From Fidelibacterota bacterium (GTDB lineage: Bacteria > Pseudomonadota > Alphaproteobacteria > Rhodospirillales > Rhodospirillaceae): DNA of 64,000 nucleotides. Positions 42,838-45,155 of this stretch are shown piece by piece. The stretch lies in contig CANJBL010000001.1 in the NCBI GenBank assembly GCA_947472795.1, positions 124,001-188,000 on the forward strand, in the 5' to 3' direction. Numbering within the stretch: position 1 is the first letter of the stretch; every line of letters starts with the position of its first letter. Made by a program: the position numbers and the translations under genes. A model generated the notes under the pieces. It searched no databases and was not told where the DNA came from. It saw nothing but the letters and a program-made list of their open reading frames with translations.

Positions 42838-43233
42838 CTATGGGCGCAAGGCCAGGACCCAGCTCACCGCCGTGAGCAGGATCGTACCGACCAGCACAAG
42901 CAAATTGCCGCGCTTGGTTTGGGCGATCTCGAAGTTCATGCCGACATCCCAGAACAGGTGCCGGATGCCGTTACACAGGTGGTAAAACAGCGCCACCGAG
43001 AAGCCGAGCAGGATGAGATAGCCCAGCGGCGAGCCGATGAAACCTGTGAACTGGGCATAGGCCTCGGGGCCCATGGCGGCCGCGCCGATCCACCAGACCA
43101 AAAGCAGCGTGCCGATGGTCAGGCCGATGCCGGTGATGCGGTGCGTGATGGACATCCAGGCCGCCAGCGGCAACCGATACACTTGAAGGTGTGGCGAGAG
43201 CGGCCGGGCGGCGGGTTTCGCGGCTTGGGTCAT
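42838..43233 (-). CDS. sdhC: Succinate dehydrogenase cytochrome b556 subunit
   Basis: 131 aa with three membrane segments. Signature HLQVYRLPLAAWMSITHRIT (20-39) and the haem-ligand region LCNGIRHLFWD. First gene of the sdh operon; the 478-bp gap upstream holds its promoter and that of the divergent Gly-rich gene. Confidence 0.94.
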   Translation of the reverse strand: MTQAAKPAARPLSPHLQVYRLPLAAWMSITHRITGIGLTIGTLLLVWWIGAAAMGPEAYAQFTGFIGSPLGYLILLGFSVALFYHLCNGIRHLFWDVGMNFEIAQTKRGNLLVLVGTILLTAVSWVLALRP

Positions 43234-43711
43234 GGCGGGTCCAGCGGTTGAGTAGTGAGTGTCTAGCTGTAGCTAAGATTAAGTGTTTAAAGGACATTTC
43301 AGGTGCAAAAGCACGGTCTGTCCAATGTCCCCGTGCCATTCCTACCCACCCCCTTCGGTGAAGTCAATTCAACGGCGGCGTTTCCAGCGCACGGCTGACC
43401 GGACAAAACTGCAGTGTCCCGAAGGCCTTAGGTCCCATTTCAGGAAGCCCTACCGCTTCTGCTGAATCCCGGAACTTATTCCCGGACAAGGCGTTTTCCC
43501 AGGCAGACAAAAGGTATCGCAAGCACTGCCTGAGACAGCCAAAGAGGCTGCTCTTAAAAAGACACAAAGTCCTCTCCTTTCGGACACACACCGGACGTTC
43601 TGTTCATTGCAGACAACACTTCGTTACCCCACCGCCCCTTTCTCGGGTTGTGGCAAGACGTCGCGAACGGGCCTTGTTTACCAAAGCAACACGACACACA
43701 GGAGATACATC
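43234..43711. other. 478-bp divergent intergenic region (sdhC / Gly-rich protein)
   Basis: No convincing coding frame. It contains the EcfG-like promoter (43471-43495) and, in the presumed 5' leader of the plus-strand gene, two hairpins: CAGGCAG (43500-43506) / CTGCCTG (43526-43532) and CAGCC (43536-43540) / GGCTG (43546-43550). The sdh promoter must lie in the left third, but no clear boxes stand out. Confidence 0.6.
43471..43495 (+). promoter_or_regulatory. Putative EcfG (general stress sigma factor) promoter
   Basis: GGAAC at 43471-43475, 16-nt spacer, CGTT at 43492-43495: an exact match to the alphaproteobacterial PhyR-EcfG consensus GGAAC-N16/17-CGTT. Transcription would start near 43501 and read into the gene at 43712 with a leader of about 210 nt. 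Confidence 0.6.
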
Positions 43712-44329
43712 ATGTTGAAGAAGCTCATTCTGACGACAGCCTTCATCGCGCTCAGCGCCGCGGCTCCGGCCTCGGCCCAGTTACTGGGCGGCGGAGGTGC
43801 AGTCGGCGGCGCGGTCGGTGGCGCCGGCTCTGTTGGCGGCATTGGCGGCGGCGGTTTAGGCGCGGGCGGTGATCTCGCCGGCTCGACCAGCGGCTCGCTG
43901 CGTCGCGGCGGTGCTGGTGCCGATATCACCGGCAACGCCACCGGTAACGCCACGGGCAACGTCAACGCCAATACACGTGCGGCCCGTAACCGCGCGGCTG
44001 GTGCGGCCAATGCCACGACTCGCGCTGGTGCGAATGCCGGTGCTGCTGCGAGCGGTACCGCGGCGGGTGCGGCGAATACGGCCGGTAGCGCCGCTACTTC
44101 GGCGCGCGGATCGGCGTCTGGCGCTGCTTCCGGTGCGGCCAACGCGGCCGGCAGCGTCAATCCCGATGTGAGCGGCGCGGCCAGCGGTGGCGCGGCTAGC
44201 AACGTCAACGTCGATCAAAATTCTGTCGGCGTATCGGGCAGCGGCAATGCGTCCGGTTCTGCCGCCACCGGCAGCACCGGGGCAAGCGTTGGCGGTTCCG
44301 GCTCTGCCGGCGCGAACGTCCGTCGCTAA
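43712..44329 (+). CDS. Gly/Ala/Asn/Ser-rich secreted low-complexity protein
   Basis: 205 aa from ATG 43712, which has AGGAGA 6 nt upstream. Signal peptide MLKKLILTTAFIALSAAAPA, cleavage near ASA-Q. The mature protein is almost entirely Gly, Ala, Ser, Asn, Val, Thr and Arg: Gly-rich block (LGGGGAVGGAVGGAGSVGG), GNATGNATGNVNANTRAARN, Ala/Arg-rich and Gly/Ser/Ala-rich blocks (SGAASGAANAAGSVNPDVSG), ending VGGSGSAGANVRR. No Cys. No domain recognised; a disordered or matrix-like extracellular/periplasmic protein. A strong terminator follows, so it is probably monocistronic and stress-inducible. Confidence 0.78.
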   Translation: MLKKLILTTAFIALSAAAPASAQLLGGGGAVGGAVGGAGSVGGIGGGGLGAGGDLAGSTSGSLRRGGAGADITGNATGNATGNVNANTRAARNRAAGAANATTRAGANAGAAASGTAAGAANTAGSAATSARGSASGAASGAANAAGSVNPDVSGAASGGAASNVNVDQNSVGVSGSGNASGSAATGSTGASVGGSGSAGANVRR

Positions 44330-44346
44330 GCGTCTTAGATAAAAGA

Positions 44347-44380
44347 GGGCGTCGCCAGACTCTGGCGGCGCCCTTTTTTT
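44347..44380 (+). terminator. Rho-independent terminator after the Gly-rich gene
   Basis: GGGCGTCGCCAGA (44347-44359) pairs with TCTGGCGGCGCCC (44361-44373; one T-G pair) and is followed by seven T residues (44374-44380). It starts 17 bp after the stop codon. Confidence 0.88.
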
Positions 44381-44474: not shown

Positions 44475-45155
44475 ATGACTCTCGTCGGCCTCACACAATT
44501 CTTTCCCAATCTGGCGTTCCTCGATCTGGCTTTTGTGCGCGGCATTATCGTTGGCTTCGCACTGGCGGCACCTATGGGGCCGGTCGCGGTTCTGTGCATA
44601 CGACGCGCGCTGGCGCGTGGACGCGTGCAATCTTTCGTCGCAGGATTGGGCGCCGCTGTTGCGGACATGATCTTTGGTGCCGTGGCAGGTCTCGGCATTA
44701 CAGTCATCAGCACCTTCGTGCTGCACTATGAGATGGCCATTGGCCTCTTCGGCGGCATTCTTGTGCTGGCCATGGGCATCACGACGTACCGCACGCCCAT
44801 TGTCATGACCGATGGCACTGTAGAGGTGAAAAGCCTGCGCCGCGATTTCATCGCCGCATTCACCATGGCCATCACCAATCCCGCCACCATGCTGGCAGCC
44901 GCCGGCGTCTTCGCCGCTTTCGGCCCCGTCGATATGGTCAAAGAATCCGCGCGCGCTTTCTGGCTGGTGGTCGGTGTGTTCACGGGCTCGGCCATCTGGT
45001 GGCTGACGCTCTCGGGCGCCGCCGCCACGTTGCGCGGGCTTTTCATCGCCAAGGGCCTGCCGTGGCTGAACAAGATCTCCGGCACCATCATCGCGCTTTC
45101 AGGCGTGATCGTGCTGGTGGTGACGGTGATGAAAGCCCTGGAGACGCGACCTTAG
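44475..45155 (+). CDS. LysE family amino-acid exporter
   Basis: 226-aa inner-membrane protein with about six hydrophobic segments. Family signature GFALAAPMGPVAVLCIRRAL near the N-terminus and the conserved ITNPATMLAAAGVFAAFG. LysE/RhtB transporters export amino acids or derivatives; substrate unknown. The last codons and stop are duplicated in tandem just downstream. Confidence 0.87.
   Translation: MTLVGLTQFFPNLAFLDLAFVRGIIVGFALAAPMGPVAVLCIRRALARGRVQSFVAGLGAAVADMIFGAVAGLGITVISTFVLHYEMAIGLFGGILVLAMGITTYRTPIVMTDGTVEVKSLRRDFIAAFTMAITNPATMLAAAGVFAAFGPVDMVKESARAFWLVVGVFTGSAIWWLTLSGAAATLRGLFIAKGLPWLNKISGTIIALSGVIVLVVTVMKALETRP

Follow-up and report, generated by a model that had tools for sequence, protein, structure and literature searches.

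A candidate EcfG-type stress promoter upstream of a probably exported, low-complexity protein of an apparently undescribed family in an alphaproteobacterial genome

The window analysed here, i.e., the whole 64-kb stretch of DNA (G000:C1:124001-188000), belongs to a 3.2-Mb genome (G000) assembled into 51 contigs. Between sdhC and a gene for a LysE-type translocator, it carries a single ORF for a probably exported protein, together with a putative promoter of the EcfG type, a ribosome-binding site and an intrinsic terminator (Table 1); in the ORF listing, the same frame begins at an upstream TTG. A sequence-only reading of this DNA had described a good ribosome site, one ORF and a strong terminator, all of which are borne out. 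The terminator hairpin was missed by a simple scanner, and a terminator-like hairpin with a T-run, judged by eye, also follows the gene in 7 of 10 orthologues. An AAGTCAA block, which corresponds to the -35 element of the likely sdhC promoter, was seen by eye in each of the 8 genomes that have the ORF immediately next to sdhC. A promoter scanner reported no sigma-70-like sites around the ORF, which is weak evidence because this scanner is strict and also misses the likely sdhC promoter. Elsewhere in the window, a bacterial small SRP RNA (RF00169; 1289-1385, minus strand) represents the only Rfam match at gathering score.

Table 1. Features of the sdhC-LysE region in the window, and divergent genes at the corresponding place in three relatives
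Feature	Coordinates	Strand	Basis
sdhC, succinate dehydrogenase membrane subunit (PF01127)	42838..43233	-	Pfam match; upstream, divergent
Likely sdhC housekeeping promoter, TTGACT-N17-TAGGAA	43339..43367	-	By eye; passed over by scanner
Putative EcfG -35 element, GGAAC	43471..43475	+	Exact pattern match
Putative EcfG -10 element, CGTT, 16-nt spacer	43492..43495	+	Exact pattern match; in this genome, N16 sites as a class are overrepresented in front of genes
Stretch between motif and ATG, 216 nt	43496..43711	+	Sequence; almost entirely leader should the transcript begin directly downstream of the -10 element
Ribosome-binding site, AGGAGA	43700..43705	+	Sequence; 6 nt before ATG
ORF, 205 aa, probably exported Gly/Ala/Ser/Asn-rich protein	43712..44329	+	Sequence; orthologue at same place in 10 other genus genomes
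Signal peptide, residues 1-23 (...APASAQ)	43712..43780	+	Cleavage site by eye; A22 and Q23 invariant in alignment of 11
Predicted single long helix, residues 69-147	43916..44152	+	AlphaFold2; block pLDDT 60-89 for residues 71-140
Intrinsic terminator, hairpin and T-run	44341..44379	+	Fold -33.3 kcal/mol, z -5.0, 0/200 shuffles as good
LysE-type translocator (PF01810)	44475..45155	+	Pfam match; after terminator
Divergent autotransporter beta-domain gene, G012	L118 2565-3749	+	PF03797, E 3.5e-12
Similar divergent ORF, G018	L106 511-1779	-	Likeness by eye
Similar divergent ORF, G016	L110 2574-3734	+	Likeness by eye

The sequence-only reading had placed an exact GGAAC-N16-CGTT match at 43471-43495, and a pattern scan of the 64-kb window returned precisely this site (GGAACTTATTCCCGGACAAGGCGTT), with a GGAAC box and a (C)GTT box set apart by the 16-17 nt between GGAAC and CGTT that characterize EcfG-dependent promoters. 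Taken by itself, such a match is unremarkable, with 0.56 copies expected in the window and at least one copy present in 41 of 100 window shuffles. A whole-genome scan for the motif gave a divided answer. Counts were uninformative because the pattern read backwards is as common in this genome or commoner (39 copies of the N16 pattern against 69 reversed; 25 of the N17 pattern against 27 reversed), and raw counts were hence dropped as evidence. Position relative to genes, by contrast, separated the motif from controls: 17 of 39 N16 sites (Fisher p 0.0002) and 7 of 25 N17 sites (Fisher p 0.018) lie in front of a gene, compared to 1 of 30 control sites with the wrong spacings N20 or N21. For this comparison, a site was considered to be in front of a gene if no predicted gene covered it and a gene followed on the same strand at a distance below 300 nt; all 39 N16 sites, all 25 N17 sites and the first 30 of the 37 control sites were taken. 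Gene prediction relied on a simple coding model, for which 45 ORFs of the window served as the training set, so individual gene starts may be wrong. The motif exceeds chance only as a class, through its position before genes.

The genome also encodes the machinery that would use such sites. PhyR (PF22029, PF22233), an ECF sigma factor and NepR (PF18557) are encoded within about 3 kb on contig G000:C2, with the sigma factor gene adjoining that for NepR; hence all three components expected of a host for EcfG-dependent promoters are present. The compact general stress locus (G000:C2 about 246500-249700, or L105 6500-9700) comprises genes for PhyR, a small divergent gene, ecfG, nepR and a PRC-barrel-like gene, and N17 sites stand before the small divergent gene, before the PRC-barrel-like gene and 44 nt upstream of ecfG. 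While this locus suggested N17 as the sole functional spacing, that idea was rejected, as N16 forms the larger gene-associated class. Targets of the gene-associated sites, judged by eye, include ecfG, PRC-barrel and glycine-zipper proteins. Given the excess of gene-fronting N16 sites and the presence of PhyR, NepR and EcfG, the GGAAC-N16-CGTT class looks functional in this genome, and the earlier identification of the motif as the general stress consensus of alphaproteobacteria is supported by a regulon that is visible through site position. In one relative (L066, G003), the region upstream of ecfG carries back-to-back EcfG sites that share the palindromic GGAACAAAGTTCC, with -35 boxes overlapping on both strands.

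The distance of the window site to its gene is long. Its motif ends 217 nt before the ATG, beyond the proximity of about 100 nt that is typical of EcfG promoters though not obligatory, and among the 17 gene-fronting N16 sites just one (L010, 258 nt) is farther away; 14 of these 17 and 4 of the 7 gene-fronting N17 sites fall within 100 nt of a coding start. In a Sphingomonas melonis study (PMC6599016), the EcfG motif is given as GGAAC-N17-20-GTT and sites gather within 100 nt with farther ones allowed, and the table of top targets lists an exact site 270 nt before a strongly EcfG-dependent gene. The window site thus shares with EcfG promoters the exact GGAAC and CGTT boxes and a host with PhyR, NepR and EcfG, as well as a 16-nt spacer found in other gene-associated sites of the same genome, but differs from published sites and from those of its own genome, which cluster within 100 nt, in its distance to the ATG, and it differs further in not being conserved in close orthologues. 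AGTT sites are only weakly gene-associated in this genome (5 of 29, at 41-128 nt). Since neither these five nor the single gene-fronting control (at 142 nt) lies at least 150 nt from its gene, a chance site that far away appears to be uncommon, although the numbers are small.

Conservation was examined by taking the region from sdhC to the LysE gene from 15 further genomes of the genus. An orthologous ORF occupies the same place in 10 of these 15 genomes as well as in this one (in G013 the contig stretch ends before the LysE gene), and a search of the locus and a profile search of the genomes found it absent in G001, G008, G009, G010 and G017; G007 yielded only a fragment at a contig end and was not counted, and in two genomes no match to sdhC was obtained. 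In the upstream sequence, taken up to 330 nt from the ATG, none of the 10 syntenic orthologues has a strict EcfG site, while three (G012, G016 and G018) have the relaxed form GGAAC-N17-20-GTT, ending about 210-280 nt before the ATG. The promoter is therefore not conserved upstream of orthologues (strict 0/10, relaxed 3/10), whereas at the ecfG locus of relatives a strict site was kept on the strand leading away from ecfG in 8 of 8 genomes and before ecfG in 6 of 8; that comparison covered 300 nt upstream in 11 NepR loci minus this genome's own, one without ecfG and one with a short upstream region. At least 4 of the 11 genes with a relaxed site were obtained in a fraction of 0.0005 of 2000 shuffles when all 11 were treated as independent. 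However, the G018 leader is strongly alignable to both the G016 and the G012 leader, and the 310 nt upstream in this genome could not be aligned above shuffle level to any of five orthologous leaders; as the three leaders resemble each other and not that of this genome, the three relaxed sites are nearer to a single event than to three. Homology of these sites to the one at 43471 is unsupported, with alignment scores at shuffle level. The relaxed sites of the three relatives are located at the beginning of a divergent gene of autotransporter type (Table 1). This gene stands between sdhC and the orthologue in the three relatives and is not there in the window. In the genus tree, deep nodes are too weakly supported to place this genome.

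A second element was found upstream of the orthologues. The pattern T[TC]GnCGnnATGGnnRCGTT (R, A or G), or a looser form that also ends in CGTT, is present in 8 of the 10 orthologues at 75-155 nt upstream of the ATG, e.g., at L106 1881-1899 in G018. The corresponding motif models score 55.2 at width 12 and 92.4 at width 20, compared to at most 44.1 and 60.8, respectively, in 6 shuffled sets each, values that are inflated by relatedness. Across the genus there are 14 exact matches in 10 genomes and 1 match for the reversed pattern; 5 of the 14 precede the orthologous gene (G002, G006, G013, G016 and G018) and 9 lie elsewhere. The element is possibly an operator or a promoter of another kind. 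Its assignment as the -10 element of an EcfG promoter was rejected by eye, as no GGAAC lies 16-17 nt before it.

These observations give substance to a first alternative, namely that the long intergenic region contains GGAAC-N16-CGTT by chance and that a nearer promoter, associated in the orthologues with the second element, drives the gene. The long distance to the ATG, the lack of the strict motif in the orthologues and a leader that cannot be aligned to theirs all argue for it, as do the presence of the second element before 8 of 10 orthologues, with a model above all 6 shuffled sets (a result inflated by shared ancestry), and the fact that 5 of its 14 exact genus-wide matches, in 5 genomes, precede this very gene. 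Against it, the element is weak in this genome (CAACACTTCGTT, score 5.3), which has no exact match, and most exact matches in the genus are found away from the gene, while gene-fronting N16 sites are rare by chance and similar genes in another genus (G020, below) carry strict EcfG sites. We regard this alternative as a serious possibility that nevertheless falls short of even odds.

The protein fits the earlier description as Gly/Ala/Asn/Ser-rich and unassigned. Its mature part consists of 27% Gly, 26% Ala, 13% Ser and 9% Asn, with a GRAVY of +0.015 and a pI of 11.9, and none of the 11 aligned members has a match in Pfam or NCBIfam. As conserved features, these members share a signal peptide, a head rich in Gly and a Gly/Ser tail. 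The signal peptide suggests that the window protein is probably exported. AlphaFold2, run on four sequences, returned the signal helix, the helix of residues 69-147 and no other regular structure (mean pLDDT 52.6), so that the predicted architecture is a Gly-rich head, one long Ala-rich helix and a disordered tail. Comparison of the model with PDB folds gave 0 matches, as expected for a low-confidence single helix. Periodicity, measured in the 11 orthologues as identity autocorrelation beyond residue 55, had mean z values of 3.4 at 4 residues, 2.6 at 11 and 2.0 at 22; z at 11 residues reached 3.8-5.7 in G006, G003, G016 and G018, while the window protein itself had z values of 5.1 at 4, 3.3 at 22 and -0.2 at 11. 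An Ala-rich helix of the LEA (late-embryogenesis-abundant) type would be expected to show this pattern, which is seen in several members and less clearly in the window protein.

The likeness to LEA proteins is partial. As in LEA group 3 or LEA_4-type proteins with 11-residue repeats (PF02987), the window protein is Ala-rich and mostly disordered with a predicted long helix, may belong to a stress regulon, and has several orthologues with 11- and 22-residue periodicity. It differs in being Gly-rich, with few charges, neutral hydropathy and periods of its own at 4 and 22 but not 11, in its probable export and in matching no model; a search of the 11 members at E values up to 10 found 0 Pfam families, LEA families included, in a setting where HMMER filters drop most weak matches. 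Hydrophilins are defined by more than 6% glycine and high hydrophilicity; the window protein far exceeds the first value but is not strongly hydrophilic.

A second alternative concerns the role of the protein, whatever its promoter, and holds that it is a structural part of an extracellular matrix or surface layer instead of a stress protectant. A signal peptide recognized by eye, low complexity rich in Gly, Ala, Ser and Asn, and disordered ends would all suit such a part, and so would the surroundings of the orthologue in G012, G016 and G018, where a divergent autotransporter gene (PF03797 in the first, similar ORFs in the other two) adjoins it. The charged helical 11-residue repeats of several orthologues point the other way, and the lack of a Pfam or NCBIfam model for any of the 11 members also counts against it. 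A structural role may likewise be considered a serious possibility, though less likely than not.

More distant homologues bear on both questions. A search with the single protein matched 9 of 61 genomes, all in the genus, and a profile of the 11 proteins found 17 matching genomes among 73 from the family, 12 of them within the genus; the weaker matches outside it (G078, G079, G088, G089 and G020) represent two other genera, and no relatives of sdhC, the LysE gene or asd were found within 1.5-2.9 kb around them. In a comparison with shuffles that keep the signal peptide and the composition, conducted for six proteins and leaving out G079, five exceeded 300 of 300 shuffles and the sixth 299 of 300. 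In G020, which belongs to another genus of the family, two tandem genes (L171 249-1337) encode probably exported Gly/Ala-rich proteins and each has a strict site, an N16 site ending 60 nt before one ATG and an N17 site ending 80 nt before the other; the second protein is among those that exceeded 300 of 300 shuffles, and the first is the one with 299. The first gene was found beside the profile hit, was itself no hit and was not called by the coding model, and its start was chosen by eye, with a distance of 48 nt if its GTG is the start. The 3.9-Mb G020 genome has 82 strict sites; among the first 30 of them, 15 lie before genes, including, by eye, ecfG. The five homologous genes of G088 (two), G089, G078 and G079 have neither a strict nor a relaxed site within 300 nt, and one strict site lies about 700 nt upstream of the G088 gene on C93. 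With strict sites in G020 and these genes lacking them, there is good support for EcfG control of such proteins in one other genome, with a patchy picture overall.

The best explanation of the locus brings the PhyR, NepR and EcfG genes, the gene-associated N16/N17 class, the ORF with its terminator and the protein family with its periodicity together in a single-gene unit driven by EcfG from the 43471-43495 site. Under stress, phosphorylated PhyR would bind NepR and release the general stress sigma factor EcfG, which would start transcription just after 43495; the transcript would run through a leader of about 210 nt and one ORF and stop at the terminator. The product would leave by its Sec signal peptide to the periplasm or the outside. 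Rich in Ala and Gly and disordered for the most part around a single long helical core of repeats, it would most likely act as a LEA-like protectant or filler of the cell envelope. We put the probability of this explanation, and of 43471-43495 being a used stress promoter, at about 0.58; the genome-wide class test and the G020 genes speak for the stress promoter, tempered by the distance and the non-conservation of the site. A stress-controlled role as an envelope protectant is the more tentative part. Of the self-contained stress unit proposed in the sequence-only reading, the boundaries stand, with a terminator of its own and the next gene beyond it, while stress control is weakened by the 217-nt distance and the lack of conservation, the latter being an outcome that the sequence-only reading had itself named as counting against its proposal.

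That a genuine EcfG promoter here mainly yields a small regulatory RNA or a leader peptide encoded in 43500-43710, while a second start serves the ORF, is very improbable: the leader is long (about 210 nt, as proposed earlier) and holds a hairpin-plus-T site at 43579-43595, but this is no more than chance would give (1 site found against 1.3 in shuffles), no Rfam family matches the leader at gathering score (weak hits were disregarded), and the two hairpins described earlier, while predicted, belong to a fold no better than that of shuffled sequences (z -0.66, 47/200 as good).

While this kind of promoter is already well known, the protein family is apparently undescribed, as the titles and abstract openings surveyed gave no published description of it. 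A broader reading, which we consider unlikely and offer as a suggestion, is that an exported LEA-like family of helical repeat proteins is put into the envelope by alphaproteobacteria of this family as part of the general stress response; EcfG promoters would then have arisen independently in this species and before the two tandem genes of another genus, and other lineages would have kept an older, different control element. If EcfG control holds, an exported low-complexity helical protein family would extend the known outputs of the general stress response in alphaproteobacteria, for which a table in PMC6599016 lists many hypothetical proteins among the top targets, and the locus would illustrate the turnover of promoters upstream of a single orthologous gene. 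In addition, the positional test of sites across the genome provides a list of candidate EcfG targets for an uncultured lineage that, from assembly names alone, probably inhabits lakes.
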